Made by a program: the position numbers and the translations under genes | Notes under the pieces: model-generated | Databases searched by the model: none | What the model was told of the DNA's origin: nothing | Seen by the model: the letters and a program-made list of their open reading frames with translations, nothing else | NCBI RefSeq assembly: GCF_034366625.1 | Contig: NZ_JAXMIH010000024.1 | Location: 1 to 64,000 of the forward strand | Length of the DNA stretch: 64,000 nt | Reading direction: 5' to 3' | Origin: Prosthecobacter sp. | GTDB lineage: Bacteria; Verrucomicrobiota; Verrucomicrobiia; Verrucomicrobiales; Verrucomicrobiaceae | Shown: positions 7,574-24,053 of the stretch, piece by piece | How positions within the stretch are numbered: position 1 is the first letter of the stretch | Layout: each line of letters begins with the position of its first letter

Positions 7574-9072
7574 TTCAGAGCCAGTTTATACACCACACCG
7601 AAGAGCACGATGATGGCAAGACCGACCCACATCCAGACAATGGTGGTGGAGTCCATCGTGCGGCCACCCTGCTGGACGCGGTCCACGCGGCCACGGATGC
7701 GGCCTTTCTTGAGGAAGCCGTCATAATGGCTCTGCAAGAGATGCGTTTCGACCTGACGCATGACATCCAGCACGACGCCAACGAGAATCAGCAGGCTGGT
7801 GCCGCCGAAGAACTGGGCGGCGGAGCTCGAAATCTGCATGGAACTGCTGACGATGCCGGGCATCACATAGAGACCGGTGAGGAAGATCGCCCCGGCAAAG
7901 GTGAGGCGGCTCATGGTGAAGTCGAGGAAGTCGGCGGTGGGCTTGCCAGGACGGATGCCAGGGACGTAGCCGCCGCTCTTTTTGAGATCTTCGGAAATCT
8001 GCGTGGGCTGGAACATGGTGGCGACCCAGAAGTAGCTGAAGAAGAAAATCAGGGCGGCGGAGATGACGTAGTAAGTGGTTCCGGTGCTGATGAAGATGGC
8101 CATGCGCTGAATCCAGTTCACGTCCTTGAACAAGGAGGCCAGGATGGTGGAAGGGAACAGCAGGATCGCCTGCGCGAAAATGATCGGCATGACGCCGGAA
8201 TAATTGATCTTCAGCGGCAGATACTGCGTCTGGCCGCCATAGACCTTGCGGCCGACGACGCGTTTGGCGTAAGTGATGGCAATTCGTCGTGTCGCCTGGG
8301 TGAGCGCAATAACACCGGCGATGACGAGAATCATGAAGCCCATGAGCAACACGAGAGTGAAGGCGCTGGCCGGGCTGGCTTTCACGCTGCCGACGAAGGT
8401 CTGCCAGACCTGGATGAGGGCCCCAGGCAGGTCGGAGACAATGTTGACGCAGATGAGGATGGAGACGCCGTTGCCAATGCCGCGGTCGGTGATCTGCTCA
8501 CCGAGCCACATCATGAGCATGGTGCCGGCCGTGATGGTGATGACGGAGGTGAAGACAAAGCCAATGCCGTAATTGGGCACGAGCGGTCGCCCGCCTAGTT
8601 TGTCGATGGCATCCTGCAAGCCGGCCATCAGATAGTTTTGCTGCGGATCGGCCAGTGATTGCGCGAGCAGGGTGGCCTGGAAGACGCAGAGCACAATGGT
8701 GGCGATGCGGGTGTACTGCGTGATCTTCTGACGACCGCCCTCCTCGCGGGCCAGTTTGCTGAGCGGCGGCCACACGGCGGTGAGGAGCTGCAGCATGATG
8801 CTCGCACTGATGTAAGGCATGATGCCGAGGGCGAAGATGGCGCAGTTTTGCAGGCCACCACCGCTGAAGATGTTGAGCAGCGCGGCGACCTGGGCGGCAC
8901 CGGAGGCACTGTCACCCGCCTTGTTTTCGATCCAGGCATTCAGCACCGTCGGATCGACGCCCGGAAGCGTGATGGAGGTGCCGATACGGACGATGACAAT
9001 CATCGCCAGCGTGAAGAGGATGCGCGAGCGAAGTTCGGGGACTTTGAAGCTGTTGGCGAAGGCGGAGATCAT
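7570..9072 (-). CDS. secY: Protein translocase subunit SecY
   Basis: The central channel of the Sec translocon in the inner membrane. The 500-residue protein has about ten hydrophobic segments, begins with the family-typical MISAFANSFKVPELRSRI, and carries the conserved cytosolic loop KRVVGRKVYGGQTQYLPLKIN near the middle. It is longer than the usual 430 to 450 residues, mostly in periplasmic loops such as the Gly/Asn/Ala-rich insert after TM1 (ENKAGDSASGAAQ). In the operon it follows rplO across a 91-nt spacer that can fold into a hairpin (9094 to 9141), and it overlaps map by 4 nt. adk, which often follows secY, is absent. Confidence 0.97.
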   Translation of the reverse strand: MISAFANSFKVPELRSRILFTLAMIVIVRIGTSITLPGVDPTVLNAWIENKAGDSASGAAQVAALLNIFSGGGLQNCAIFALGIMPYISASIMLQLLTAVWPPLSKLAREEGGRQKITQYTRIATIVLCVFQATLLAQSLADPQQNYLMAGLQDAIDKLGGRPLVPNYGIGFVFTSVITITAGTMLMMWLGEQITDRGIGNGVSILICVNIVSDLPGALIQVWQTFVGSVKASPASAFTLVLLMGFMILVIAGVIALTQATRRIAITYAKRVVGRKVYGGQTQYLPLKINYSGVMPIIFAQAILLFPSTILASLFKDVNWIQRMAIFISTGTTYYVISAALIFFFSYFWVATMFQPTQISEDLKKSGGYVPGIRPGKPTADFLDFTMSRLTFAGAIFLTGLYVMPGIVSSSMQISSSAAQFFGGTSLLILVGVVLDVMRQVETHLLQSHYDGFLKKGRIRGRVDRVQQGGRTMDSTTIVWMWVGLAIIVLFGVVYKLALK

Positions 9073-9093
9073 GGGAGAGGGGCTCTAAGCGAA

Positions 9094-9141
9094 GATGGGC
9101 CTGGTTCCTGACAGCACTTGCTGCGCGGAGACCGGCCCATC
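9094..9141 (-). promoter_or_regulatory. Hairpin in the rplO-secY spacer
   Basis: GATGGGCC (9094-9101) is perfectly complementary to GGCCCATC (9134-9141). The stem extends inward by GGT/ACC with a one-base bulge, closing a loop of about 25 nt. It lies in the only sizeable gap between rplO and secY. No T-run follows, so it is not a classic terminator. It may be a processing site or mRNA stabiliser that separates secY-map expression from the ribosomal genes. The function is inferred. Confidence 0.4.
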
Positions 9142-9163
9142 AAAACGGTTGGGTCAGAAAAAA

Positions 9164-9607
9164 TCAGGCGGCGATGGAACCGCCGGCTTTCTCAATCTTT
9201 TCACGGGCCGCAGCGCTGACTTGCGCGCCTTGGATGGTGAGTTTGCGGGCGAGATCGCCAGTGCCGAGGATCTTGATGGCATCGCAGTTGCGGCTGACGA
9301 GCCCGATTTCACGCAGAGCGGCTTCGTTGATGACGGCACCGTCCTGGAAGGCATCGTTGAGTTCGCCAACATTCACGACTTCGAAGACGTCTTTGAACGC
9401 CTTGTTGTTGAAACCCTTCTTGGGAAGACGGCGGTGCATGGGCATCTGACCACCTTCAAAGCCGGGGCGGATGCCGCGTCCTGCGCGGGCCATCTGACCT
9501 TTGTTGCCTTTGCCACAGGTTTTGCCGTGGCCGGAGCTTTCGCCACAGCCGAGGCGTTTGCGGCGCTTTTTGGCACCGGGGCGGGGTTTAACGTCTTGGA
9601 GTTGCAT
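9164..9607 (-). CDS. rplO: 50S ribosomal protein L15
   Basis: A large-subunit protein of 147 residues. The N-terminal Gly/Lys/Arg-rich arm (KKRRKRLGCGESSGHGKTCGKG) and the GFEGGQMPMHRRLPKKGF motif are diagnostic of L15. It follows rpsE with only 39 nt between them, leaving no room for rpmD (L30), which sits here in many bacteria. The entire gap is a tract of 7-nt units that abuts the ATG, so there is no ordinary Shine-Dalgarno. Confidence 0.98.
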   Translation of the reverse strand: MQLQDVKPRPGAKKRRKRLGCGESSGHGKTCGKGNKGQMARAGRGIRPGFEGGQMPMHRRLPKKGFNNKAFKDVFEVVNVGELNDAFQDGAVINEAALREIGLVSRNCDAIKILGTGDLARKLTIQGAQVSAAAREKIEKAGGSIAA

Positions 9608-9642
9608 GATGAAAACTAAAAGTTAAAAGCTGAAAGCTAAAA
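9608..9642 (-). repeat. Heptamer tandem repeat tract A, 5' of rplO
   Basis: On the coding strand the gap reads as five consecutive 7-nt units of the form TTTTAGC, TTTCAGC, TTTTAAC and so on. The last unit touches the rplO ATG. Three to five bases per unit are invariant, and the phase is kept for 35 nt. The tract replaces the expected Shine-Dalgarno. Confidence 0.75.
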
Positions 9643-9646
9643 TGAA

Positions 9647-10234
9647 TCAGAGGGCTTTGCGCTCTTTGATCTGCTTGCCACGGGCACGGAGGATTTCGTC
9701 AGCAGGGCGCAGCGCGCTGAGGGCGGCGAGCGTGGCCTTGACGACGTTGGCGTGATTGCTGGAACCAAGGGACTTGCCGATCACGTCTTTGACGCCAGCG
9801 GCTTCAAGCACGGCGCGTGCGCCACCACCGGCGATGATGCCGGTACCTGGCGTGGCAGGCTTGAGCAGAATGTGGCCGCCGCCGTGGGAACCGGTCACCT
9901 CATGGGGAATGGTGCTGTCCTTGAGGCAGATGGAGTACATGTTCTTGCGGGATGCCTCGGTGGCCTTTTTGATGGCGTCGGAGACTTCGTTCGCTTTGCC
10001 AAATCCGCAACCGACCTTGCCCTTGGCATCACCAGAGACAACGAGAGCGCTGAAGCTGAAGCGACGACCGCCTTTGACGACCTTGGCGCAACGGTTGATG
10101 TGAACGACTTTTTCAACGCCATCCACTTCACGCGGCCCACGATCATCGCGACCACGGAAGACTGAAGGTGCGGGAGCAGCGACTTCAACGGCTTCCACCG
10201 GCGGTGCCTCAATAATTACTGTTTCATCGGCCAT
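9647..10234 (-). CDS. rpsE: 30S ribosomal protein S5
   Basis: A small-subunit protein important for decoding fidelity. The double-stranded RNA-binding S5 fold is seen from [18 protein letters not shown] to about residue 100. The C-terminal domain has [19 protein letters not shown] and ends RALGKQ-like ([12 protein letters not shown]). At 195 residues it is longer than usual because of an acidic, Ala/Pro-rich N-terminal extension of about 35 residues ([18 protein letters not shown], then a [14 protein letters not shown] linker). It lies between rplR and rplO in the usual spc order. Confidence 0.98.
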
Positions 10235-10256
10235 ATAAGAAATGAATGCGGGTGGA

Positions 10257-10613
10257 TTAGAATTTCAGGCCCTTTTCGCGGGCGGCATCGGCGAGAGCCT
10301 TGACCTTGCCATGATAAATGAAGCCCGCGCGGTCGAAGACCACTTCGGAGATGTTCTTGGCGATGGCACGCTCGGCGAGGACGGCACCGACCTTGGTGGC
10401 GTTCTCGACGTTGGCCTTGCCAGCGCCGTAGCCTTTTTCCTTGGTGGAGGCCGAAACAAGAGTCTTGCCGGCCGCATCGTCGATGACCTGGGCGTAAACG
10501 TTGGTGTTCGAGAAGTAAACAGCGAGACGGGGACGCTCGGCGGTGCCGCTGAGCTTGCGGCGGATGCGCTTGTGAATGCGAGCGCGGATGTCTTTGCGAT
10601 TGGTGAGGGCCAT
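10257..10613 (-). CDS. rplR: 50S ribosomal protein L18
   Basis: A 118-residue protein that binds 5S rRNA with L5 and L25 in the large subunit. It has the basic N-terminal tail ([19 protein letters not shown]), the [20 protein letters not shown] core and the family ending [28 protein letters not shown] split over the last 30 residues. It lies in canonical order between rplF and rpsE, with short spacers. Confidence 0.98.
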
Positions 10614-10631
10614 GATGAATATCTCCGGGGA

Positions 10632-11171
10632 TTACTTGACGGATTTGCCGGCTTTGCGGCGGATGTGCTCGCCCACATAACGAACGCCCTTGGCCTTGTA
10701 AGGCTCCGGCGGGTAGTAGGCGCGGATGTCGGCGGCAAGCTGCCCGACAACCTGTTTGTCGATGCCTTCGATGGCGATCTTGGTGTTTTCAGTGACGGTC
10801 ACCTTCACCCCTTTCGGGATGGGATGCAGACGTTCATGGGACTGGCCAAGCTGGAGGTCGATCTCGGAGCCTTTGACCGCAGCGCGGAAGCCGACGCCGT
10901 GGATTTCGAGGTTCTTGGTGTAGCCCTGGCTGACGCCGATGAGCATGTTCGAGATCAATCGCTGCGTGGTGCCGTGAAGAGCACGCACCTGGCGCTCATC
11001 GGACTCGCGGGTGACGTTGATGGTCTTGGCATCGGCATCGACTTTGACGCCGAGCGGAAGATTCCAGCCAAGTTCGCCCTTGGGGCCTTTGACATGCACC
11101 GAACGGTCGTCGCCGATCTTGATGCTGACCTTGTCGGGAATGGTGATGGGTTGTTTGCCTACGCGTGACAT
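10632..11171 (-). CDS. rplF: 50S ribosomal protein L6
   Basis: A large-subunit protein near the factor-binding site. The 179-residue product starts MSRVGKQPITIPDKV, the standard L6 N-terminus, so ATG 11171 is chosen over a TTG-type upstream start at 11249 that would run back into the rpsH region. It has two repeated beta-alpha modules and the C-terminal signature YYPPEPYKAKGVRYVGE, followed by a basic tail (RRKAGKSVK). It sits between rpsH and rplR. Confidence 0.98.
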   Translation of the reverse strand: MSRVGKQPITIPDKVSIKIGDDRSVHVKGPKGELGWNLPLGVKVDADAKTINVTRESDERQVRALHGTTQRLISNMLIGVSQGYTKNLEIHGVGFRAAVKGSEIDLQLGQSHERLHPIPKGVKVTVTENTKIAIEGIDKQVVGQLAADIRAYYPPEPYKAKGVRYVGEHIRRKAGKSVK

Positions 11172-11193
11172 GAAGGTGGTGACAGTTGGAGGT

Positions 11194-11583
11194 TTACCAG
11201 ACGGTGGCGAGGAGTTCGCCACCCACTTTGGCCTTGCGGGCCTTGGCACCGGTCATGATGCCACGCGGGGTGGAAAGAATGGAAATGCCGAGGCCGCCGA
11301 GGACGCGGGGGATCTCATCGCTGCCCACATACTTGCGCAGGCCGGGCTTGCTGGCGCGGTCGATCTTGCGGATGACAGGTGCCTTGTCCTGATACTTGAG
11401 CTTGAGCTTGAGGCGAGGATGGGTGGCGTTGGTGTCCACTTCATAGCTCCAGATGTAGCCTTCTTCCTGCAGGATGCGGGAGAGTTCGGCTTTCATCTTC
11501 GAGAAGGGAATGAGCACCTGCTCCTGCTGTGCGGAGCAGGCATTGCGGATGCGGGTGAGATAATCTGCGATCGGGTCGGTCAT
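11194..11583 (-). CDS. rpsH: 30S ribosomal protein S8
   Basis: A 129-residue 16S rRNA-binding protein that initiates assembly of the platform. In E. coli it is the translational repressor of the spc operon. It starts MTDPIADYLTRIRNA and ends with the S8 signature ISILSTPRGIMTGAKARKAKVGGELLATVW region. rplE is only 29 nt upstream, so rpsN (S14), usually placed between rplE and rpsH, is missing here. Confidence 0.98.
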   Translation of the reverse strand: MTDPIADYLTRIRNACSAQQEQVLIPFSKMKAELSRILQEEGYIWSYEVDTNATHPRLKLKLKYQDKAPVIRKIDRASKPGLRKYVGSDEIPRVLGGLGISILSTPRGIMTGAKARKAKVGGELLATVW

Positions 11584-11612
11584 GACGCTGAGGGTGTCCG
11601 GGGGTTCTTAAA

Positions 11613-12200
11613 TTAGGCGGCAGCGGCTTCAGAGCCATCTTCCTTCTTCGGCTGGGCGGTGCGGGTGCGGAACGGCATGCCCAGGGCACGCAGCATTTCA
11701 CGCGCATGATCATCATTGTTCGTGCTGGTGACGAAGGTGATGTCAAAACCGAGGGGACGCTTGATCTTGTCGATCTCGATCTCAGGGAAGATAGACTGGT
11801 CGGAGACACCGAGGGTGTAGTTGCCACGGCCGTCAAAGGCGCGGGGAGCGACACCACGGAAGTCACGAATACGCGGGATGGCGGTGCGCACGAGGCGCAT
11901 CATGAAGTCATACATCTTAACGCCGCGCAGAGTAACTTTAACGCCGATGTTTTCACCTTCACGCAGCTTGAAGTTGGCGATGGCCTTCTTGCTTTTGGTG
12001 ATGATGGGCTTCTGGCCGGTGATGAGAGTGACTTCGTTCACCGCATCTTCGATCGCCTGCTTGCGTTCGCCCTGGCTGCCGACAGAGCAGTTGATGACGA
12101 TTTTTTCAAGCTTGGGAACCTGATGGATGTTGGTGAGGGCGAGCTGGGTCTTCAGTTCGTCGCGCTTCTGTTTGTAGAGGGTCTTGAGGGAGTATTCCAT
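11613..12200 (-). CDS. rplE: 50S ribosomal protein L5
   Basis: Binds 5S rRNA and contacts the P-site tRNA. At 195 residues it is slightly longer than the usual 179 because of an acidic, Ala-rich C-terminal tail (KKEDGSEAAAA). Diagnostic stretches are ITGQKPIITKSKKAIANFKLR, GVKVTLRG and FRGVAPRAFDGRGNYTLGV. The 90-nt spacer to rplX is one of the longer gaps in the cluster, but no defined structure was recognised in it. Confidence 0.98.
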   Translation of the reverse strand: MEYSLKTLYKQKRDELKTQLALTNIHQVPKLEKIVINCSVGSQGERKQAIEDAVNEVTLITGQKPIITKSKKAIANFKLREGENIGVKVTLRGVKMYDFMMRLVRTAIPRIRDFRGVAPRAFDGRGNYTLGVSDQSIFPEIEIDKIKRPLGFDITFVTSTNNDDHAREMLRALGMPFRTRTAQPKKEDGSEAAAA

Positions 12201-12290
12201 GATTCAGTTTGGGCTGTGCCTCCTTTCCTTCAATGGCCGCACCGTGCGGAGCGACGATGGTAAAGGGGGAAGCAAATGGGGGGCGGGGAT

Positions 12291-12578
12291 TTAGGCTTTG
12301 GCCTTCTTCTTAGCAACTTTCTTTTTCTTCTCTTTCGCGGGCGCTTCGACGCGCTTCACGTTGGAAATGTGGATGGGGGCTTCTTTTTCCTGGAAGCCGC
12401 CGGCCTGGTTCTGCTGGGTGGGCTTGATCGCTTTTTTGATCATGCGCACGCCTTCAACGAGCACACGGCCTTTGCCCGGCTGCACTTGCAGGACAACGCC
12501 CTGCGCGCCTTTGGCGGCTCCGGAGATGACGACGACATTGTCGCCCTTTTTAACGTGGGTCTTGATGTGGCTGCTCAT
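12291..12578 (-). CDS. rplX: 50S ribosomal protein L24
   Basis: An early assembly protein of the large subunit. It has the KOW motif ([21 protein letters not shown]) and the [24 protein letters not shown] segment. At 95 residues it is shorter than the roughly 104-residue E. coli protein, and ends in a Lys/Ala tail ([14 protein letters not shown]). Its start overlaps the rplN stop by 4 nt (ATGA), implying coupled translation. Confidence 0.98.
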
Positions 12579-12943
12579 AGCACTTCGGGGGCGAGGGAAA
12601 CGATCTTCATGAAGTTTTTGTCGCGCAGCTCACGGGCCACCGGGCCAAAGATGCGGGTGCCGCGCGGGTTGTTGTCCTTGTCGATGATGACCATGGCGTT
12701 CCGGTCGAAACGCAGGATCGAGCCATCCACACGACGGATCGGATGCGAGGTGCGGACGATCACGGCACGGACGACTTCGCCCTTCTTCACGGCGGCGGTC
12801 GGGGTGGACTCGCGAACGTGCGCGGTGATGATGTCGCCAACATAGGCGAAGCGGGTGTTTTTCTTGCCCAGCACGCCGATCATCGTGGCCAAGCGGGCAC
12901 CGGTGTTGTCAGCCACCGGGATTGAAGATTCCATTTGCAACAT
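12575..12943 (-). CDS. rplN: 50S ribosomal protein L14
   Basis: A 122-residue large-subunit protein that forms intersubunit bridges. It starts [19 protein letters not shown] and contains [32 protein letters not shown] at the end, both hallmarks of L14. It is highly conserved, with no unusual extension. It overlaps rplX downstream by 4 nt and follows rpsQ. Confidence 0.99.
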
Positions 12944-12987
12944 AAGCTGTTTCTCCTGGTCAGGTTAAGGGGTTCAAAAAATTGCGA

Positions 12988-13272
12988 TTAGTGCTTCTGA
13001 ACTTCCAGCAGTTCCCAGCGCTTCAGCTTCGAAAGCGGACGGGTTTCGCCGATGAGCACCTTGTCGCCCTCCTTGGCCTGTTCCTTCTCGTCATGAGCAT
13101 AGAACTTGGAGGTCTTGCGCACGATCTTCTTGAACTGCGGATGCGGAACGCGGCGTTCGACTTTGACGACGATGGTCTTCGCCATTTTGTCGGACAACAC
13201 GACGCCGACGCGCGTCTTGCGCACGGTTTTCTTTTCGGTGGCGGCAGGGGCTGCTGCGGTGGTCTCGCTCAT
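12988..13272 (-). CDS. rpsQ: 30S ribosomal protein S17
   Basis: Primary 16S rRNA binder of the small-subunit body. The OB-fold core runs from [22 protein letters not shown] to the [20 protein letters not shown] signature. The N-terminus carries about 20 extra residues ([19 protein letters not shown]) compared with the 84-residue E. coli protein. It sits between rpmC and rplN in canonical order. Confidence 0.98.
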
Positions 13273-13307
13273 GATGTTAAAATTGCTTCAGGGGGTTGGT
13301 GACCGGA

Positions 13308-13526
13308 TCAGGCGGCCTTCTTGGCAGCCGCGGCGCGGGTGCGCTCGGTGATGATGGTTTCGATGCGGGCGATCTCCTTGCGGATGTGGGTCAGGCGCGC
13401 AGGATTTTCGAGCTGGCCGCCACCGGCGCTCTGCTGGATGCGCAGATTGAGCGCCTCCTGCTTCAGTTCGCGACGGCGTGCGGAAAGCTCTTCCACAGTC
13501 GATTCACGGAGTTCTTTGATCTTCAT
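13308..13526 (-). CDS. rpmC: 50S ribosomal protein L29
   Basis: A 72-residue two-helix protein at the peptide exit tunnel. It starts MKIKELRESTVEELSARRRELKQEALNLR and has the ARLTHIRKEIARIETIITER motif, ending in an Ala/Lys tail (TRAAAAKKAA). Immediately upstream of the ATG is a 7-nt repeat tract rather than a Shine-Dalgarno. Confidence 0.98.
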   Translation of the reverse strand: MKIKELRESTVEELSARRRELKQEALNLRIQQSAGGGQLENPARLTHIRKEIARIETIITERTRAAAAKKAA

Positions 13527-13532
13527 AATTCA

Positions 13533-13560
13533 GTTCGCAGTTCGCGGTTCTCGGTTCGCG
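13533..13560 (-). repeat. Heptamer tandem repeat tract B, between rplP and rpmC
   Basis: On the plus strand four exact-phase 7-nt units occur: GTTCGCA, GTTCGCG, GTTCTCG, GTTCGCG. On the coding strand this is CGCGAAC-type repeats ending 6 nt before the rpmC ATG. The unit differs from tract A but has the same length and position relative to the gene. Confidence 0.8.
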
Positions 13561-13566
13561 TGGTGG

Positions 13567-13989
13567 TTATTTGTGCAGGCTTTCGCGGCTGACGAAGCGG
13601 CAACGGAGGCCGAGTTTCGTAGCGGCCAGGCGGCAGGCTTCACGGGCGGTGGCCTCGTTGACGCCGGAGATTTCAAACAGCATGTGCCCGGGGAGGACGA
13701 CAGCGACCCAGAATTCCGGGGCGCCTTTACCTTTACCCATTCGGACTTCCGGCGGGCGCTGGGTGACGGGCTTGTGCGGGAAAATGCGGACGAAAACCTT
13801 GCCTTTGCGCTTCAGGAAGCGGGTGATGGCGACACGGCAGGCTTCAATGTGGATGTTCTTGATCCAGCCGCGTTCAAGGGTCTGGAGTCCGAACTCACCG
13901 AAGTCGAGCTTGTTGCCGCTGGTGGCGTTGCCACCGCGGTTGCCGCGTTGCGATTTGCGATATTTAACTCTGCTGGGAAGAAGGGCCAT
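13567..13989 (-). CDS. rplP: 50S ribosomal protein L16
   Basis: A large-subunit protein near the A-site tRNA elbow. The 140-residue product starts [20 protein letters not shown] and contains [29 protein letters not shown], the L16 core, with the conserved arginine near the decoding centre. It lies between rpsC and rpmC. Confidence 0.99.
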
Positions 13990-14036
13990 ACGTCTCTGTC
14001 CTGTGGGAAGGTTTTAGTTCAAAAGGTGGAGGCTGA

Positions 14037-14837
14037 TCATGCCTGGGCGGGGGCTGGTGCCGGGGCGGGAGCGGGGGAACCATAACCGGAACCACCACCA
14101 GGGCCGCCACGACCACGTTCGCCACCACGGGGACCGGGAGCGCCAGGGCGGCGGTCACCACGGTCGTTGTTGCGCGGGCGGCGGTCACCGGAAGGACGGG
14201 AGACGCCTTCAGGGGCATTGCCACGGTTCATCCAGCACTTCACGCCGATGATGCCGTAAACGGTGCGGGCTTCGGCAAAGCCATAGTCAATCGGGATACG
14301 CAGCGTTTGAAGCGGCACCTTGCCCTGGCGATACCACTCAGCACGGGCAATGTCGGCGCCACCGAGACGACCGGCGCAGCGGAGACGGATGCCGTCAGCA
14401 CCCATGTCCATCGCGGTCTGCACGGAGCGCTTCATGGCGCGGCGGAAGGAAATACGGCGTTCAAGCTGAACGGCAACGGCCTCGGCGACGAGCTGGGCGT
14501 CGAGCTCGGGCTGCTTGATTTCAAAGATGTCGATTTTCACCTGCTTGCCACCGCACATCTCGGAGATCTTCTGGCTCATCACGTCGATTTCCTGGCCTTT
14601 GCGGCCGATGACGAGACCGGGACGGGCGGTGTGGAGCGTCACACGGACCTGGTTCCAGGCGCGTTCGATGACGATCTTCGAGATTGCGGCCTGCATGAGC
14701 TTCTCCTTGAGATAGCCACGGATAGCGAGGTCGCTGTGCAGCGAGTCTGCATATTCTTTTTCAGGGGCATACCACTTGGAGCGCCAGTCTTTGGTGACTG
14801 CGAGGCGGAAGCCGATCGGATTTACTTTCTGTCCCAT
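14037..14837 (-). CDS. rpsC: 30S ribosomal protein S3 with a Gly/Arg/Pro-rich tail
   Basis: Forms part of the mRNA entry pore and helicase. It has a KH domain (VIGRKGQEIDVMSQKISEM) and the S3 C-terminal domain (ADIARAEWYRQGKVPLQTLRIPIDYG). At 266 residues it exceeds the typical 220 to 235. Residues from about 215 on are low complexity: charged RRPRNNDRGDRRP, then GGERGRGGPGGGSGYG, then an Ala/Pro repeat. The tail has no known role; similar disordered tails occur on other translation proteins in this window. Confidence 0.98.
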   Translation of the reverse strand: MGQKVNPIGFRLAVTKDWRSKWYAPEKEYADSLHSDLAIRGYLKEKLMQAAISKIVIERAWNQVRVTLHTARPGLVIGRKGQEIDVMSQKISEMCGGKQVKIDIFEIKQPELDAQLVAEAVAVQLERRISFRRAMKRSVQTAMDMGADGIRLRCAGRLGGADIARAEWYRQGKVPLQTLRIPIDYGFAEARTVYGIIGVKCWMNRGNAPEGVSRPSGDRRPRNNDRGDRRPGAPGPRGGERGRGGPGGGSGYGSPAPAPAPAPAQA

Positions 14838-14869
14838 AAAGTGAGGAGGTGCGGTTCGGTGGCGGGCGG

Positions 14870-15310
14870 TTATTCGGAAACTTTGGCTTTGGCTTTAGCT
14901 GCCTTCTTCTTGGCAGGAGCGTCACGGCGGGCGGATTTAGGAGCTTTCTTCTCTCCTTCGGCTTTGGCTTCTTCAGCTTTCGGAGCACCGATGATGATAG
15001 TGATGTGCGTCATGCGCTTCTTGATCGGAGCGGCGGAGCCACGCGCACGCGGCATGATACGACTGAGGACGGGACCAGGAGTGGCGATGGCGGATTCGAC
15101 GATGAACTCGGAGGCGTCCAACTCATGGTTGTTCTCGGCGTTCGCGATGGCGGAGCGGAGGGTTTTACCAATGAGGAAGGCGGCCTTCTTTGGCGTGAAG
15201 TCGAGAACGCTCAACGCCTGGGAAACAGGCAGGCCGGTGATGGCGCGCGTGACCTGACGGGCTTTCTGCGAGGAGATCCTGGCGTATTTGAGGACTGAGC
15301 GGACGGACAT
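14870..15310 (-). CDS. rplV: 50S ribosomal protein L22
   Basis: Lines the peptide exit tunnel, where its beta-hairpin meets macrolides. ATG 15310 gives MSVRSVLKYARISSQKARQV, the expected N-terminus, so the longer upstream frame to 15490 is rejected. The conserved hairpin region reads SRIMPRARGSAAPIKKRMTHITI. After it comes a Lys/Ala/Glu tail of about 35 residues (EEAKAEGEKKAPKSARRD and so on), giving 146 residues in all. The gene upstream in the operon is not rpsS as usual but an exported coiled-coil protein. Confidence 0.98.
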   Translation of the reverse strand: MSVRSVLKYARISSQKARQVTRAITGLPVSQALSVLDFTPKKAAFLIGKTLRSAIANAENNHELDASEFIVESAIATPGPVLSRIMPRARGSAAPIKKRMTHITIIIGAPKAEEAKAEGEKKAPKSARRDAPAKKKAAKAKAKVSE

Positions 15311-15335
15311 AAAGCGAGGGGGGTTCTGGACTTGC

Positions 15336-16118
15336 TTAGAGGGATTTGTTGAGATCGACGCGGCCCCGGTCGCCCACGCGGACGGGATCGTTGGCGCTGG
15401 CCAGTTCTTGGACCACGGCACCACAGACGGAGTTGCGAACTTCAGTGACGAGGACTTTGGCGATGGGCTTGTCCTCGCGGAAAATTTCAAACGGCATGCC
15501 TGGCTTCACGCCGTCTTTGGCACCGATGGAGAGCACGGCGATGCCGAGTTCATTCTTCAGACTGACCACACGGGCATTTTGCATGTCACCAGCGGGCTGG
15601 CCTTCGGCCTGGCCACCACCGGCTTTGACGAGCGCACCGTCAGCCTTGGTGATCGCTTTGTTGAGGCGGTCAGATGTGGCAGGATCGGCGTTCTGGGCGC
15701 TCTTCATCAGCCCCATGCCGGCTTCGGCGAGTTCAATCAGGGCATTGGCGAGTTCATCGCGCTGCTCCTTCATGATACGCAAGTCGCTGAGGGCGGAGAG
15801 CAGACGCTCCTGAGTCTGATCTTTGGAGTTTTCGAGCGCACCCACGCCGAGCCCTTCGAGCAGGCCGCGCAGTTTTTCGTAGCGGTCCTTCAATTCGTTG
15901 CTCTCGGAGTTGGCGGCGGCGGCACTCTGGGCCAGCGCATCGTTCTTGTCCTTGGACGCGTTGTTCTGGGCTTCGAGGGCCTGGATCTTGGCGGCAGCGA
16001 CCTGAAGCGTGGTGTGAAGTTCCTGAAGTTCCAGCCTGTCATCCGCACGCACGCCAGCCACACCCGCCGCGAGGAGCAGCGAGAGAGTGAGTTTGGCGAT
16101 GGAGGTGCGGATGGACAT
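15336..16118 (-). CDS. Exported coiled-coil protein embedded between rpsS and rplV
   Basis: I do not recognise a named family. The 260-residue product starts with a Sec signal peptide (MSIRTSIAKLTLSLLLAAGVAGVRA, cleavage near residue 25). Residues about 28 to 150 are helical and rich in Glu, Gln, Ala and Leu with heptad spacing, typical of a coiled coil. A Gly/Gln linker follows, then a compact beta-rich C-terminal part (about 180 to 260: VSLKNELGIAVLSIGAKDGVKPG, FEIFR, VGDRGRVDL) resembling the small barrel domains of FlgT or MreC. It lies 21 nt after rpsS and 25 nt before rplV, same strand, so it must be co-transcribed with the S10 genes. The function is unknown; a periplasmic role coupled to growth rate is speculation. 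Confidence 0.9.
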   Translation of the reverse strand: MSIRTSIAKLTLSLLLAAGVAGVRADDRLELQELHTTLQVAAAKIQALEAQNNASKDKNDALAQSAAAANSESNELKDRYEKLRGLLEGLGVGALENSKDQTQERLLSALSDLRIMKEQRDELANALIELAEAGMGLMKSAQNADPATSDRLNKAITKADGALVKAGGGQAEGQPAGDMQNARVVSLKNELGIAVLSIGAKDGVKPGMPFEIFREDKPIAKVLVTEVRNSVCGAVVQELASANDPVRVGDRGRVDLNKSL

Positions 16119-16139
16119 GAAGTTCTCGATGCTCAGTGA

Positions 16140-16418
16140 TTATTTGGCGGCCTTGACGGTGACGGCACCGTGAGACTTGAAGAGGCGGGTCAGGGAGAAC
16201 TCTCCGAGGCGATGGCCGACCATGTTTTCAGTCACATAGACGGAGACGAAGTCCTTGCCGTTGTGAACGAGGAAGGTGTGGCCCACCAGGTCAGGAGTGA
16301 CCATGGAGGAACGTGCCCAAGTCTTGATCGGGCGTTTTTGCTTGGCGTCGTTGAGCTTGTCCACCTTGTCGAGGAGGGCTTGCTGAACGAAGGGACCTTT
16401 TTTGAGGGAGCGTGCCAT
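16140..16418 (-). CDS. rpsS: 30S ribosomal protein S19
   Basis: A 92-residue head protein of the small subunit that contacts S13 and the A-site finger. It starts [19 protein letters not shown] and has the signature [26 protein letters not shown] with [10 protein letters not shown]. It follows rplB. Downstream, the usual rplV neighbour is displaced by the exported coiled-coil gene. Confidence 0.99.
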
Positions 16419-16442
16419 GAGAATGCGTGAGTAGGGAATGGA

Positions 16443-17282
16443 TTACTTCTTGGCGTGACGGGTCTGCACGATGAGCTTGTTCGTGGCCTTCTTCTTGTTG
16501 CGAGTCTTCTCGCCCTTCGCATGGCCCCAAGGGCTAAGAAGGTGCTGACGACCACCACCTGACTTGGAGCGGCCTTCGCCACCACCGTTCGGATGGTCAA
16601 TCGGGTTCATACACATGCCGCGCACGGTCGGGCGGGTGCCCTGCCAGCGGGTGCGGCCCGCCTTGGCGCTGACGACGTTCATGTGCTCGACGTTACCGAC
16701 CTGGCCGATGGTGGCATAGCAGGTGGCGAGAATCTTGCGGATTTCGCCGGAAGGCATGCGCACAAGGGCGAACTCACCTTCACGGTTGGAGAGCACGGCT
16801 GCCTGACCAGCGGCACGGGCGACAACGCCACCTTTGCCGGGGGACAGCTCGATGTTGTGGATCGAGGTGCCAAGAGGGATTTTGCTCAAAGGAAGCGCAT
16901 TGCCGAGTTCTGGAGCGGCTTTTTCACCAGCGGTCACGGAGGCACCGACAGCGAGATTGTTCGGCGCGAGGATGTAGGCACGCTGACCGTCCTTGTATTC
17001 GATGAGGGCGATGCGGGAGGAGCGGTTCGGATCGTATTCGATGCCGACGACCTTCGCAGCTTCATCGCGACGGGAACGCTTGAAGTCGATGAGGCGATAG
17101 CGCTGGACGTGACCACCGCCGATGTGACGGGTGGTGATGCGGCCAGTGTTGTTACGGCCACCAGACTTGCGGAGAGCCACGGTGAGGCTTTTCTCCGGCG
17201 AGTGCTTGGTGATCTCCTCAAAGGAGTTCCACTCCTTGTAGCGATTGGTGGGAGTGGTGGGCTTGAATGTTTTCAGCGCCAT
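16443..17282 (-). CDS. rplB: 50S ribosomal protein L2
   Basis: A core large-subunit protein at the peptidyl-transferase centre. At 279 residues it has the usual length. Signatures are [22 protein letters not shown] near the N-terminus and the [19 protein letters not shown] loop near the C-terminus. The first histidine of DHP is retained; the second position, often His, is Asn here. It lies between rplW and rpsS. Confidence 0.99.
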
Positions 17283-17330
17283 GACGGTGGGATAAGTTAA
17301 AGGGTTGTGCCTGCGGGCCGGATACCTGGG

Positions 17331-17615
17331 TTAAGCGAGATCGAACTTTTCACCCGCCTTGAGGCGGACGATGGCTTTCTTCCAATGATTGGTGCGGCCG
17401 TAGTCGGCGCGGCGTTCACGACGGGCCTTGCCATCATAATTGCAAGTGCGGACGCCGGTGACTTTCTTGCCGAACAGCTTTTCGATGGCCTGCTTGATGT
17501 CGATTTTGGTGGCTTCGACATCGACGGAAAACACGTACTCGTTGTTCTTCTCGCCCAGCAGCGTGGCTTTTTCGCTGAGGCGGATGGTTTTGATGACTTT
17601 ATGAAGGTCTTTCAT
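17331..17615 (-). CDS. rplW: 50S ribosomal protein L23
   Basis: A 94-residue exit-tunnel protein and docking site for trigger factor and SRP. The L23 core is clear in IRLSEKATLLGEKNNEYVFSVD, EATKIDIKQAIEKLFGKKV and GVRTCNYDGKARR. It starts 2 nt after the rplD stop, indicating tight coupling. Confidence 0.98.
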   Translation of the reverse strand: MKDLHKVIKTIRLSEKATLLGEKNNEYVFSVDVEATKIDIKQAIEKLFGKKVTGVRTCNYDGKARRERRADYGRTNHWKKAIVRLKAGEKFDLA

Positions 17616-17617
17616 GA

Positions 17618-18229
17618 TCAGGCGGTCCTTTTGGCAAGGGTTTCAAGGGCGTCGCCGGTGACAACGACGCTGCGATAGCGGAGGAGGTGCTCGGCGTTCA
17701 CGTCATCAGCGGAGATGAGCTGGACGTTCTGGACATTGCGGCCGGCGCGGAAGGTGAGTTCATCAAAGCCTTTGCCGATGAGCAGCACGTTCTTGGCGGT
17801 GGTGAGACCGTTGACTGCGGCGATGAAGCTCTTGGTCTTGCCATCAGCGACGGCGAAATTGCTGGTGGTGAGCACTTCACCATCCAGGATGCGGGCGGTC
17901 AAAGCGGCGCGGAGGGCGAGCTTTTTGGTGCTCTTGGGGATCTTCTTCGCGTAAACGGTGGTGTTGCGTGGGCCGAAGACGACACCACCACCACTCCAAA
18001 TCGGGGAGCGCTTGCTGCCCATACGAGCATTGCCGGTGCCCTTCTGGTTCCACATTTTCTTGCCGGAACCGGAGACTTCCGAACGGTTTTTGGTGTGGGC
18101 GTTGCTTTGACGGCGGTTGGCACGGTAGGCCACCAAGGTGTCACTCAGCGCCTGGGAGCCTTTGTAGCCCTCGGTGAGTTGAATGTTCGCCTGCTTTGCG
18201 GCATCGGCTGTTAGAATGTTCGCGGACAT
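17618..18229 (-). CDS. rplD: 50S ribosomal protein L4
   Basis: A large-subunit protein whose loop lines the exit tunnel. In E. coli it also represses the S10 operon. The 203-residue product has the diagnostic KKMWNQKGTGNARMGSKRSPIWSGGG stretch around residues 55 to 85 and a C-terminal Rossmann-like half (KNVLLIGKGFDELTFRAGRNV). It lies between rplC and rplW. Confidence 0.98.
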   Translation of the reverse strand: MSANILTADAAKQANIQLTEGYKGSQALSDTLVAYRANRRQSNAHTKNRSEVSGSGKKMWNQKGTGNARMGSKRSPIWSGGGVVFGPRNTTVYAKKIPKSTKKLALRAALTARILDGEVLTTSNFAVADGKTKSFIAAVNGLTTAKNVLLIGKGFDELTFRAGRNVQNVQLISADDVNAEHLLRYRSVVVTGDALETLAKRTA

Positions 18230-18247
18230 GATTCAGTTCCTCAGAAA

Positions 18248-18940
18248 TTATTTCTTAGCTGCCTTGGTGGAGACACGTTGGACGACTACTTTTTTAGCGC
18301 CGGCCTTCTTGCCAGGACGCACCACAACGATGCTGCCGGTGTTCCCAGGAAGCGCGCCACCGATGAGCAGCACGCCTTCTTCAGGACGGCTCTGCACGAC
18401 AACGAGATTCTGCACTGTGCGGCGGGAGACGCCGTCATGGCCGGGCATCTTCTGATTCTTCCAGACGAGACCGGGGGTAAGACGGCAACCGATGGAACCA
18501 GGACGACGATGCATCATGTGACCGTGCGTGGCAGGCTGGCCGGCGAAACCGTGGCGCTTCACAACGCCCTGGAAACCCTTGCCCTTGGTGGTGCCGATCA
18601 CATCGACGACCTGGCCGTTGGTGAACAGGCTGGCGTCGAGCTTGAAATCTTCCGCAGGCAGCTTGTCGTCGCCGGTGAGGCGGAATTCTTTGACGATGCG
18701 CTTGGCGGTGGTGCAACCATGCTTCTTGAAATGACCGAGCAGCGGCTTGCTGACACGGGATTCTTTAAGCTGGTCGCCATAACCGATCTGCACAGCGCTG
18801 TACTTGTCTTTGCCGTCGCTGCGCTTCACCTGAAGAATGGTGTTGCCGCTGACATCGACCACAGTGACTGCCACGGCATCGCCTTTGGCGTCATAGACCT
18901 TGGTCATTCCTAGTTTTTTGCCGATCAATCCGAGACTCAT
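18248..18940 (-). CDS. rplC: 50S ribosomal protein L3
   Basis: Binds near the 3' end of 23S rRNA and helps start large-subunit assembly. The 230-residue protein starts MSLGLIGKKLGMTKVYDAKGD and contains the L3 loop GFQGVVKRHGFAGQPATHGHMMHRRPGSIG across residues about 125 to 155. An Ala/Lys tail ends the protein (VSTKAAKK). It follows rpsJ. Confidence 0.98.
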   Translation of the reverse strand: MSLGLIGKKLGMTKVYDAKGDAVAVTVVDVSGNTILQVKRSDGKDKYSAVQIGYGDQLKESRVSKPLLGHFKKHGCTTAKRIVKEFRLTGDDKLPAEDFKLDASLFTNGQVVDVIGTTKGKGFQGVVKRHGFAGQPATHGHMMHRRPGSIGCRLTPGLVWKNQKMPGHDGVSRRTVQNLVVVQSRPEEGVLLIGGALPGNTGSIVVVRPGKKAGAKKVVVQRVSTKAAKK

Positions 18941-18975
18941 GAGTGTGTCCTCCTGGGGTAAAATGGGTGGCCGTG

Positions 18976-19284
18976 TTAGATCTTGATCGTGATGTCCACA
19001 CCAGATGGGAGGTTGAGCTTCTTCAGCTCGTCCACGGTGCGGGATGTGGGATCGACGATGTCCAGCAGCCGCTTGTGCGTGCGGATTTCGAACTGGTCCA
19101 TCGACTTCTTATCGACGTGCGGGGAACGGTTCACAGTGAACTTCTCGATGCGGGTGGGCAACGGGATGGGGCCTGCGACGCGGGCGCCGGTGCGCTTCGC
19201 GGTTTCGACAATATCGGCAGTGCTCTTGTCGAGCACGCGGTAGTCATACGCGCGGAGGCGGATTCTGATGCGTTGATTAGTCAT
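18976..19284 (-). CDS. rpsJ: 30S ribosomal protein S10
   Basis: A 102-residue small-subunit head protein that also acts as NusE in antitermination complexes. It starts [21 protein letters not shown] and has [26 protein letters not shown], the S10 signature. It normally begins the S10 operon, but here it follows fusA by only 39 nt, so str and S10 genes form one unit without tuf between them. Confidence 0.99.
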
Positions 19285-19323
19285 GACGATGATCCGTGGG
19301 TGAGTGGGTTCAATCCGCTGAGG

Positions 19324-21474
19324 TTAAGATTTGCCGCCTCCGCGCTGTTCGACGATCGTCTCGACGATCTGTGACGGCACTTGTTCGAAGTGTGAGGGCT
19401 GCATCGAGTAGCTGGCGCGGCCGGAGGAAAGGGTGCGGATGGCAGTGGAGTAGCCGAACATTTCGGCCAGGGGCACTTCAGCGCGCAGGATGGCGGTGGC
19501 ACCGCGCATGTCCATGCCCTGAATCTTGCCGCGGCGGCGGTTCAAGTCGCCAAGAATATCGCCCTGGTAATCTTCTGGCGTGGAGGCTTCCACGGCCATG
19601 ATCGGCTCAAGCAGGATGCACTTGGCTTTCTTGAGCGCGTCTTTCACGGCGAAGATACCAGCCATTTTGAAGGCGTTTTCGTTGGAATCGACTTCATGGC
19701 TGGAACCATCCACGAGATCGATCTGCATGTCGATCACCGGGTAACCGGCGATGATGCCGTTGAGCGCTGCTTCAATGCAGCCGTTCTTGGCCGGATTGAT
19801 GAATTCTTTCGGGATGGTGCCGCCGACGACTTTGTTTTCAACCACGATGCCGGAACCTTTTTCGCCAGGGCGAATTTTGACCACAACGTGGCCGTATTGA
19901 CCGCGACCACCGGACTGCTTGACGAGCTTGCCTTCGCCATCCGCCGGGATGGTGAGCGTCTCGCGGTAGGCGATCTGCGGCTTGCCGGTGTTGGTTTCGA
20001 CCTTGTGCTCGCGCTTGAGGCGGTCGCAGAGAATTTCGAGGTGCAGTTCGCCCATGCCGGCGATGATGACCTGGCCGGTTTCTTCGTCGGTCTTGACGAA
20101 GAAGGTCGGATCTTCTTCGGAGAGGCGCTGCAGGGCATTGCCCATCTTTTCCTGGTCGCCCTTGGTCTTTGGCTCAACAGCCATCGAGATAACGGGTTCT
20201 GGGAAGGTTGGAGGCTCGAGCAGGATGTCGAGGTCTTCGTCGCAGAAGGTATCGCCTGTGCGCACATCCTTCACACCCACGAGGGCGGCGATATCGCCGG
20301 AGTAGCAACAATCAATGTCCTTGTGAACGCTGGCCTGAATCTGAATCAAGCGGCCCACGCGCTCGGATTTGCGGGTGCGGGGATTGTAGATCGTGTCGCC
20401 TTTTCTGACGCAGCCGGAATACACACGGAAGAACACGAGGCGGCCAAATTTGTCGGACCAGAGCTTGAAGCCAAGGGCGCAGAATTTGCCATTATCGTCT
20501 GGCAGCGCTTCGACCTTCACTTCAGGATCATCCACAAGCTGACCCGTCTGGGGCTGAATATCGAGCGGCCCTGGGAGATAGTCGATCACAGCATCGATCA
20601 GATACTGCACGCCCTTGTTTTTGAAGGCGGAACCACCGGCCATCGGAATGATCTTGTTGGCGATCACCGTGCGGCGAAGGGCTTCTTTCACTTCCCGAAT
20701 CGTGATCGGCTTCTCTTCAAGGAACATCATGCCGAGTTCTTCGTCATGATTGCAAATCTCAGCAACGAGGCCGTCGTAGTTTTCCTTGGCCTTCTTGATT
20801 TCGTCGCCTTCCAGGTCACGCACCGTGTAGGAAGAGCCAAACTTTTCGTCATCGTTATAGATGATCGCCTTTTGGTTCACCACGTCGATCTGACCAATGA
20901 GATTTTCTTCGGCACCGATCGGAATCAGGATCGGCCAGGCATTCGCACCCAGCTTTTTGCGCACGTCATTCACCACATTGTCGAAATTGGCGCCCGTGCG
21001 GTCCATCTTGTTCACGAAGGCGATGCGAGGAACGCTGTATTTCTCAGCCTGACGATACACCGTCTCAGACTGCGGCTGGACGCCGGCCACACCGCAAAGC
21101 ACAAAGATCGCGCCGTCAAGCACACGGAGGGAACGTTCCACTTCAGCGGTGAAGTCCACGTGTCCGGGGGTGTCGATGATGTTGACGCGAATGTCTTCCA
21201 ATTCGCGCAGCTTGAAGATGCCCTCTTCCTTGAGCTGCTTCCAGCGTGCGGTCACAGCAGCAGAAGTGATGGTGATACCACGCTCTTTTTCCTGCTCCAT
21301 CCAGTCGGTGGTCGCAGCACCGTCATGCACCTCGCCGATCTTGTGGATCATGCCGGTGTAGAAGAGAATACGCTCGGTCAGGGTCGTCTTGCCCGCGTCA
21401 ATATGCGCGCAGATCCCGATATTCCGGGTGCGCTCAAGAGGGTATTCGCGGTTGGGGGAGTTGGGGTTAGCCAT
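19324..21474 (-). CDS. fusA: Translation elongation factor G
   Basis: The GTPase that drives ribosomal translocation. The 716-residue protein has G1 (AHIDAGKTTLTERIL), G3 (DTPGHVDFT) and G4 (NKMDRTGA), domain IV (QSGGRGQYGHVVVKIRPG) and the C-terminal domain V with FGYSTAIRTLSSGRASYSM. All key GTPase residues are present. It follows rpsG and precedes rpsJ; the tuf gene that commonly follows fusA is missing. Confidence 0.99.
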   Translation of the reverse strand: MANPNSPNREYPLERTRNIGICAHIDAGKTTLTERILFYTGMIHKIGEVHDGAATTDWMEQEKERGITITSAAVTARWKQLKEEGIFKLRELEDIRVNIIDTPGHVDFTAEVERSLRVLDGAIFVLCGVAGVQPQSETVYRQAEKYSVPRIAFVNKMDRTGANFDNVVNDVRKKLGANAWPILIPIGAEENLIGQIDVVNQKAIIYNDDEKFGSSYTVRDLEGDEIKKAKENYDGLVAEICNHDEELGMMFLEEKPITIREVKEALRRTVIANKIIPMAGGSAFKNKGVQYLIDAVIDYLPGPLDIQPQTGQLVDDPEVKVEALPDDNGKFCALGFKLWSDKFGRLVFFRVYSGCVRKGDTIYNPRTRKSERVGRLIQIQASVHKDIDCCYSGDIAALVGVKDVRTGDTFCDEDLDILLEPPTFPEPVISMAVEPKTKGDQEKMGNALQRLSEEDPTFFVKTDEETGQVIIAGMGELHLEILCDRLKREHKVETNTGKPQIAYRETLTIPADGEGKLVKQSGGRGQYGHVVVKIRPGEKGSGIVVENKVVGGTIPKEFINPAKNGCIEAALNGIIAGYPVIDMQIDLVDGSSHEVDSNENAFKMAGIFAVKDALKKAKCILLEPIMAVEASTPEDYQGDILGDLNRRRGKIQGMDMRGATAILRAEVPLAEMFGYSTAIRTLSSGRASYSMQPSHFEQVPSQIVETIVEQRGGGKS

Positions 21475-21522
21475 GGAACAAAATTGACGTGAAATGGACG
21501 GGAAATCGTGATGAGAGACGGC

Positions 21523-21996
21523 TTAGAAGCGGAAGTGAGCGAACGCACGGTTGGCCTGCGCCTGCTTGTGAACGTCGTCCCGCTTGCGGACGGCATTCCC
21601 CTGCCCTTGTGCGGCATCCTTCAGCTCATTCGCCAGGGCGCGGTGCATGGCCTGGCCTTTGCGGCCACGGGCAAAACCAACAATCCAGCGCATGGCCAGG
21701 GACTCCTGACGACGAGGGGAAACTTCCAGCGGCACCTGATAGGTGGCACCACCGACGCGGCGGGCTTTGACTTCCACGCGTGGCTTGGTGTTCTCAATGG
21801 CGCGATTGAAGAGCTCCAGCGGATCGACGCTGTCCGTCTTGTCATTGAGCTGTTCGATGGCTGTATAGACAATGCGCTCGGCGAGCGACTTCTTGCCATC
21901 CAGCATGATGTTGCTGATGAGGGCGGCGACCAGTTCGCTATCGTAGCGGCTATCCTTGCGAACCTCTTTGTTATAAACGCGTTTTCTGCGGGCCAT
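21523..21996 (-). CDS. rpsG: 30S ribosomal protein S7
   Basis: Organises the 3' major domain of 16S rRNA; in E. coli it represses str operon translation. The 157-residue product starts MARRKRVYNKEVRKDSRYDSELV and has the S7 signature LFNRAIENTKPRVEVKARRVGGATYQVPLEV with SLAMRWIV. It lies between rpsL and fusA. Confidence 0.99.
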   Translation of the reverse strand: MARRKRVYNKEVRKDSRYDSELVAALISNIMLDGKKSLAERIVYTAIEQLNDKTDSVDPLELFNRAIENTKPRVEVKARRVGGATYQVPLEVSPRRQESLAMRWIVGFARGRKGQAMHRALANELKDAAQGQGNAVRKRDDVHKQAQANRAFAHFRF

Positions 21997-22030
21997 GACG
22001 TGGTGAGATGGAGGGTGAAATCAGCGGGAA

Positions 22031-22435
22031 TTACTTCTTCTTCGCGGCAACGGCGGCGGCACCGGCCTTCGGACGTTTCGCACCGTATTTGGAACGGCCG
22101 CGACGACGAGCGTCAACTCCAAGGCAGTCCAGCGTGCCGCGCACGATGTGGTAACGCACACCCGGCAAATCCTTCACACGTCCGCCACGCACGAGAACAA
22201 TGCTGTGCTCCTGGAGGTTGTGACCTTCGCCGCCGATGTAGGCGATGACTTCATAGCCGTTGGTCAGGCGTACCTTGGCCACCTTGCGCAAGGCCGAGTT
22301 CGGTTTCTTGGGCGTGCGGGTCATCACCTGGAGGCAAACGCCACGACGCTGCGGGCACTTGGCAAGCGCGGGTGACTTCGACTTTACCGCCTTGTCTTTG
22401 CGGCCGTGTCTGACGAGTTGATTGATGGTGGGCAT
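22031..22435 (-). CDS. rpsL: 30S ribosomal protein S12
   Basis: A decoding-centre protein that sets accuracy. The 134-residue product starts [15 protein letters not shown] and has [23 protein letters not shown] with the lysine that streptomycin-resistance mutations change, and [18 protein letters not shown]. The C-terminal KK-rich tail is slightly longer than in E. coli. It is the first gene of the long ribosomal unit, preceded by a leader with strong secondary structure. Confidence 0.99.
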
Positions 22436-22463
22436 GGTGTGAAAGAGCTGTGATCCTTGGCTT

Positions 22464-22543
22464 TTATTGGAGCCGGTTTCGGAAGACAGCGCGCCATGCT
22501 CACAATGAGCACGCGCAGACTTTTCCGGTTCTGGCTCCGATAA
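22464..22543 (-). promoter_or_regulatory. Large dyad structure in the rpsL leader
   Basis: An 80-nt nested inverted repeat. Outer arm 22464-22474 pairs with 22533-22543 (11 bp, one G-U type). A second helix joins CGGAA near 22480 to TTCCG near 22523. GCGCG (22489-22493) pairs with CGCGC (22512-22516). The tip is TGCTCA-CAA-TGAGCA (22497-22511). The structure ends about 28 nt before the rpsL ATG. It could be a ribosomal-protein feedback site or other leader RNA; its position on the mRNA assumes a promoter further upstream, which I could not define with confidence. Confidence 0.55.
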
Positions 22544-22545
22544 TG

Positions 22546-22567
22546 AAGGCCCTCCGTGGAGGGCCTT
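22546..22567 (-). promoter_or_regulatory. Perfect 10-bp hairpin upstream of the rpsL leader structure
   Basis: AAGGCCCTCC (22546-22555) and GGAGGGCCTT (22558-22567) are perfect complements separated by 2 nt. It lies next to the larger leader dyad. There is no T-run on either side, so it is not a standard terminator. It may stack on the larger structure or act as an attenuator element; this is inferred. Confidence 0.5.
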
Positions 22568-23490: not shown

Positions 23491-23573
23491 AGCCACCTTT
23501 ATCATGCTCGACATGAGCGGTTTTCATTCAATGGTTCGGATCCCCCTATCCGTTTCTCTCTTGTGTCCCTCCC

Positions 23574-23966: not shown

Positions 23967-24053
23967 GGCTAGGAACGTCAGCACCCACTTCGCCCGATGC
24001 TACGTTCACGCTGCATCCGATCAAGGAGAACCGTGACTGCGGTATTTGCCTCC

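Follow-up and report, generated by a model that had tools for sequence, protein, structure and literature searches.

A conserved, probably exported protein encoded between rpsS and rplV in the S10 operon of Verrucomicrobiota

Few gene pairs in bacteria are as stable as rpsS-rplV. In the 64,000-nucleotide stretch of DNA analyzed here (the window), the two genes are separated by a gene for a 260-residue protein, which we call X. What is this protein, how did it come to lie there, and does its place tie it to ribosome production? With gene names read off the list of open reading frames, the order in the window is fusA-rpsJ-rplC-rplD-rplW-rplB-rpsS-X-rplV-rpsC-rplP-rpmC-rpsQ-rplN-rplX-rplE-rpsH-rplF-rplR-rpsE, and X is on the minus strand, the same as the adjoining ribosomal genes. 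An earlier note had placed X between rpsS and rplV with spacers of 21 and 25 nt, and the coordinates confirm this. The features of the locus are as follows.

15336..16118, minus strand: gene X, 260 aa (open reading frame, third-position excess and orthologues at the same site)
16044..16118, minus strand: X residues 1-25, predicted signal-peptide-like N-terminus (hydrophobicity rule)
15621..16046, minus strand: X residues 25-166, long helices forming a hairpin and a third helix (AlphaFold2 model)
15357..15575, minus strand: X residues 182-254, six-stranded FlgT_C-like barrel, the best-conserved part (model pLDDT, structure matches and residue conservation)
16119..16139, minus strand: 21-nt spacer from the rpsS stop to the X start (sequence)
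15311..15335, minus strand: 25-nt spacer from the X end to the rplV ATG (sequence)
16140..16418, minus strand: rpsS (S19), upstream neighbor of X (open reading frame; used as query)
14870..15310, minus strand: rplV (L22), downstream neighbor of X, ATG at 15310 (open reading frame)
15288..16139, plus strand: antisense open reading frame overlapping X, judged no gene (stops in 7/8 relatives; codon adaptation 0.445)

Elsewhere in the window, rpsN is absent between rplE and rpsH, where the gap (11583-11613) is too short for it, and tuf is absent between fusA and rpsJ, where the gap (19284-19324) is also too short.

Comparison with eight congeners supports X as the coding frame. Substitutions concentrate at the third codon positions of its minus-strand frame; against the locus L003, for example, codon positions 1, 2 and 3 carry 21, 9 and 90 substitutions. 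The overlapping plus-strand frame was rejected as a real gene and judged a shadow, because the matching frame is broken by stops in seven of the eight. Searches of positions 14000-19500 returned no promoter-like site on either strand; six terminator-like sites turned up, all of them opposite the gene strand, with 6.8 expected on both strands together. No Rfam match was found in 9000-24000. No Shine-Dalgarno-like motif precedes X, rpsS or rplV; under a loose rule, such a motif occurs in only 6 of the 21 cluster genes (window 9647-22435). The codon adaptation of X is 0.653, compared with 0.607-0.802 for the ribosomal genes, but 5 of 29 other open reading frames, taken mechanically, score at least as high as X, so the measure does not discriminate. 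The earlier note took the spacers to show that X is translated from the ribosomal mRNA. We soften this to a statement of fit: the spacers are as it gave them, and together with the signal search they are consistent with X being read from that mRNA, as we infer.

The gene is conserved at this site. Our draw of relatives comprised 56 genomes, including the window genome; 53 match X and 52 hold it inside the operon, with both neighbors visible at 50 of these loci and two loci cut by contig ends. The four relatives without X in the operon (G014, G016, G031 and G006, which has a single weak match elsewhere) are 74-81% complete. A draw of 141 genomes from the class, again with the window genome, yielded 106 matches at E ≤ 1e-3, of which 76 are strong (E ≤ 9.4e-20, the next best being 6e-11). 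Every locus of these 76 genomes was read, and in all of them full-length X directly follows rpsS; rplV then adjoins X in every genome but G181, whose contig ends first. Twelve further genomes carry a short form of X in place, giving a class total of 88/141. X is spread over two frames in G025 (L018) and is part of a 558-aa frame in G177 (L130). Loci of several genomes were covered twice in the class reading, and the profile used to read the class and split loci was built from many of those same loci.

A strong match is lacking in 65 class genomes; S19 was found in 62 of them, and L22 likewise in 62. In 39 of the 65, the S19 and L22 domains lie at most 86 nt apart, with no X; in seven they lie 124-165 nt apart, also with no X; in four (G071, G079, G104 and G113) 191-604 nt separate them and no X is recognizable; and in three (G103, G114 and G174) neither was found, these categories having been obtained by hand subtraction. 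X at rplV is absent from 53 of the 141 genomes, a few of which are ones in which S19 or L22 was not found. Genomes without X at rplV, in the class or elsewhere in the phylum, include several single-contig ones. A search for remnants of X in eight genomes with long rpsS-rplV gaps gave a best E of only 0.051. Two genomes of 0.9 Mb (G071 and G079) are without X and a congener of 2.5 Mb (G136) has it, a pattern that would sit more easily with a role in the envelope than with one in the ribosome. At L156 and L157, the loci of 0.9-Mb genomes of one genus, the rpsS-rplV gap is 329 and 164 nt, with no recognizable remnant of X.

Outside the class, we sampled 80 of 128 genomes of the phylum: of 60 that have an A1 match, 45 were taken, and of 68 that have none, the first 35. 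An X match was counted if it shared the strand of L22 and ended no more than 300 nt ahead of it. X is directly upstream of L22 in 46/80, which is no frequency, because the genomes were chosen rich in matches; at 19 of these loci it is joined to rpsS, at 26 the operon is split, and in one genome S19 was not found. The remaining 34 comprise 23 joined operons, 10 split ones and one genome lacking both hits. The A5 alignment used for this search includes X from 19 of the 80 genomes (18 via A1 and one via the A2 profile).

Altogether, 36 of the 80 genomes have an S10 operon that is split ahead of rplV (L214-L222, L262-L279 and L281-L289), with X at the break in 26. Many splits were deduced from different contigs, so all 26 split loci were read upstream of X. 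Contig ends, suspected as the cause in 12 of the 26 where X lay close to such an end or the length of the contig was not given, were rejected: none of the 26 loci has rpsS upstream of X, although in G272 and G245 the contig extends only about 0.6 kb and 1.1 kb beyond X. The genes found there are mostly unrelated and vary, apart from tatC in genus g100, where it directly precedes X in five of the six genomes read (G189, G195, G231, G235 and G286, not G194; L218 762-2857, L262, L269, L273 and L276). This tatC, an envelope-export neighbor, matches Pfam TatC at E 2e-47 to 2e-57 and in one genome has a TatA-like gene ahead of it. No X match directly follows S19 in any of the 36 split genomes, and in the 10 without X at L22 (L222 included) no X was seen among the last open reading frames upstream of rplV. 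A small number of events may account for these splits.

These counts show the order rpsS-X-rplV, which the earlier note proposed to check, to be conserved in many Verrucomicrobiota. A one-off insertion, which the earlier note would have recognized by relatives with adjacent rpsS and rplV and no homologue, is rejected on the strength of X at the same site in 52/56 genomes of the order and 88/141 of the class, and directly upstream of rplV in 46/80 of those chosen elsewhere in the phylum, although that picture holds in part for the 39 of 141 class genomes in which both genes are close and X is absent. Among 30 Planctomycetota loci (the best L22 matches among 59 genomes), none has X between rpsS and rplV, as judged by gap size and open reading frames only: 24 gaps are shorter than 120 nt, three of 228-311 nt contain no open reading frame above 52 aa, and three were not measurable.

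To trace the descent of X, we compared its tree distances with those of rplB+rpsC at 84 loci. The two agree well (Mantel r 0.746, against a maximum of 0.114 in 999 permutations), with X distances on average 3.07 times those of rplB+rpsC, and X is inherited vertically. A mobile origin was rejected, as X has no match in the plasmid collection and its tree follows the ribosomal tree. The distribution fits an ancient insertion followed by vertical descent and repeated loss, and we infer a single insertion in an early ancestor.

The architecture proposed from the sequence, with an N-terminus of export type, a coiled coil and a small barrel, was upheld as a prediction by the N-terminal rule and an AlphaFold2 model (76 input sequences, mean pLDDT 86.7). 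The model shows a weak N-terminal helix, helices at residues 25-89, 93-139 and 146-166, and a poorly predicted link. In the C-terminal region, for which the earlier note had recommended structure prediction, it places a six-stranded barrel, with strands within residues 182-254 and a pLDDT of about 95. Block pLDDT in the helical part is mostly 86-98, lower at residues 91-100 (65) and 161-170 (77); the pTM is only 0.41, so the model does not fix the relative placement of coiled coil and barrel. Within the barrel, G199 is invariant in the 76 sequences, and G203, G207, M208, P209, R214, V227, R228, G249 and D250 are nearly so. The last residues of X vary among members.

An export-type N-terminal segment is predicted at 101 of 107 full-length loci, an upper bound, because full-length X, unlike the controls, was given whichever start codon yielded the best hydrophobic segment. 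When starts are fixed, 92 of 107 pass in a partly different set of proteins, judged over a longer N-terminal stretch; four of these have a lipobox-like motif under a loose rule. The same export rule passes all 11 short forms tested and, among the controls, 0/88 rplB, 1/87 rpsC and 12/87 rplV. A net positive charge lies ahead of the hydrophobic stretch in 84 of 107. Judged by these predictions, X is probably an exported protein.

The short forms, found in 12 class genomes (G062, G085, G092, G099, G118, G140, G145, G155, G164, G168, G178 and G186), also lie between rpsS and rplV and are without the coiled coil, the equivalent of residues 25-166 being missing from all 12. They are 111-130 aa long in the 11 read (L144-L154) and 114 aa in L136. 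A short-form model has one six-stranded barrel with the strand order of full-length X; FlgT and ATPase barrels tie in structure comparison with it, and no Foldseek match to the short form reaches E 0.001.

Does X belong to a known family? FlgT, TsaP and MreC, the main candidates, are envelope ring and scaffold proteins. Pfam and NCBIfam models match the window protein below their cut-offs only, mostly in the helical part. Over 76 members, FlgT_C is the commonest Pfam match (24/76 at E ≤ 0.1, best 2.9e-4); it is outscored by two coiled-coil models, MscS_porin (2.5e-5) and CC149 (7.2e-5), each matching 5/76 members, and the MreC core model matches 4/76. Among 44 more diverse members, FlgT_C matches four; the commonest NCBIfam matches are SMC-type models, with MreC models in two to three members and TIGR04211 in four. 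LysM is not among the 25 families listed of 116 (76 members) or of 55 (44 members). TsaP is the top match of a PDB profile search (E 0.0012, residues 187-231), with no single stretch passing E 1, and the matches shown after it are mostly coiled coils. In fold searches, which leave out the coiled coil, Foldseek returned LPHT ring chain 0 (4.1e-5), which its length suggests is FlgT, then FlgT 3w1e (6.8e-5), with MreC 2j5u fourth (7.7e-4). By VIA Z, LPHT ring chain 0 (11.4), FlgT 3w1e (10.8) and F1-ATPase barrels (about 10) are nearly tied.

FlgT, of the flagellar H-ring, may have the same barrel fold (3w1e, rmsd 2.0 Å over 75 residues), but the window protein has no match to FlgT_C PF16538 or to any further FlgT domain (Pfam, E ≤ 1), its residues 25-166 are helical, and X has a coiled coil and lies outside any flagellar locus. 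TsaP, a LysM protein of the type IV pilus machine, matches the barrel, whereas the window protein shows no LysM at E ≤ 1 and X is in the S10 operon. MreC has the same order of parts (anchor, coiled coil, barrels), whereas X shows one barrel rather than two in both the full and the short model and lies outside the mre cluster, in the S10 operon in 76/76 strong-match class genomes; according to PMC12283558, Verrucomicrobium spinosum has its own essential mreC, VSP_RS17760. The barrel is FlgT_C-like at best, and membership in all three families fails on these other features. PMC3444138 describes the PVC signature protein CT421.2 family, which is conserved across the superphylum and has no known function; its members measure about 53 to more than 80 aa and occur in both Planctomycetes and Chlamydiae. 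X differs in being longer, in its predicted export-type N-terminus and in not lying at rplV in the 30 Planctomycetota loci. A literature search, which had most of the subscription literature outside its reach, likewise found no described system like X, in agreement with the earlier note.

The reading we prefer, with a probability of roughly 45%, is that X is an ancient exported periplasmic scaffold, inserted early into the S10 operon and supplied in step with the ribosomal proteins. X would have entered between rpsS and rplV in an early Verrucomicrobiota ancestor and then passed down vertically, with losses. Its N-terminus would direct passage across the inner membrane, and the coiled coil would give it a rod-like or oligomeric form. 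The working end would be the conserved FlgT_C-like barrel, which would serve for docking as such modules do in ring and scaffold proteins of the envelope. If X is translated from the ribosomal protein mRNA, its supply would climb with growth, so that an envelope part would be made in step with, and matched to, the ribosomes. The arrangement suggests that these Verrucomicrobiota produce a component of the envelope alongside their ribosomes. We consider doubtful the bolder proposition that the phylum carries a ribosome-coupled secreted scaffold, hard-wired in the S10 operon and kept with rplV after splits, such that envelope-building capacity tracks ribosomal protein synthesis.

Nearly as likely as the preferred reading, X may be an ordinary periplasmic protein that landed once at a site giving strong expression without functional coupling, the order persisting because breaking ribosomal operons is costly. 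A frozen ancient insertion gives the same conservation pattern, so the placement does not establish the functional tie to ribosome production that the earlier note drew from it. Vertical descent with about threefold faster divergence than rplB/rpsC agrees with such an accident, as do 39 of the 65 class genomes lacking a strong match, whose S19 and L22 domains are at most 86 nt apart. There is also a precedent for an envelope gene inside a ribosomal protein operon: the spc operon contains secY. That gene is nearly universal and encodes an integral membrane protein, whereas X is limited in these samples to one phylum and sits in the S10 operon. Against an accident, X stays with rplV in 26 split operons and directly follows rpsS in none, a point of modest weight, because the splits may not all be independent.

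A TsaP-like accessory that helps anchor a secretin or pilus ring is very unlikely. The top PDB profile match and the FlgT_C matches in 24/76 members point that way, but no single stretch of the TsaP match passes E 1, the window protein has no LysM match at E ≤ 1, and coiled coils make up most of the remaining matches shown from the PDB profile search. Less probable again is a secretion monitor of the kind that SecM is for secA, in which targeting of the X nascent chain would bring S10 polysomes to the membrane or alter rplV translation, so that ribosome synthesis senses export capacity. An exported-type product encoded directly upstream of rplV and retained there in split operons would suit such a device; however, the conserved part is a folded barrel, the last residues and the X-rplV distance both vary, and Rfam matches are absent from 9000-24000. 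Least probable of all, X would act in the cytoplasm or on the ribosome, and its N-terminal helix would be a membrane anchor or hydrophobic by chance. The operon neighbors are ribosomal, and the hydrophobicity rule is passed by 12/87 rplV and failed by 6/107 loci of X even when the best start is taken, but the stretch is present in most proteins, short forms too, with positive charge before it in 84/107, tatC lies beside X in one genus, and two reduced genomes keep rpsS and rplV without X.

The observation made in the earlier note is confirmed, and its interpretation is plausible if unproven. X is a conserved and undescribed passenger of the S10 operon, probably exported, with a broader distribution and a greater age than sequence alone could show. 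A probably exported protein sits within a stable gene pair across much of a phylum, covered by no Pfam or NCBIfam model, and represents unannotated biology in a group with few genetic models. Should the coupling of supply in the preferred reading be true, it would offer a handle on how envelope synthesis matches ribosome content. The question looks testable in V. spinosum, should it carry X, as this species belongs to the same family as the window genome; PMC12283558 describes targeted deletion and a saturated transposon library for this species, and counts 100 of 618 essential proteins as being of unknown function.

For proteins of this kind we propose the class "S10-operon resident of the Verrucomicrobiota", defined by a same-strand gene directly upstream of rplV, as X is, by an export-type N-terminus with a C-terminal barrel, as predicted for X, and by joint transcription with the ribosomal genes, as presumed for X. 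Paralogues of X with a membrane-anchor-like start, a coiled coil and a similar barrel occur elsewhere, at L223 4042-5478 (window genome, contig C14), L225 3727-5441, L226 3484-5123, L228 4601-5347 and L229 4612-5352. Their neighbors differ between genomes and give no clear guide; in two f2/g2 genomes the paralogues form a tandem pair beside a gene reading as dnaX. In Planctomycetota, L201 4049-6489 encodes a tandem pair of related anchor, coiled-coil and barrel proteins, with a gene reading as a GspE-like ATPase two genes away.
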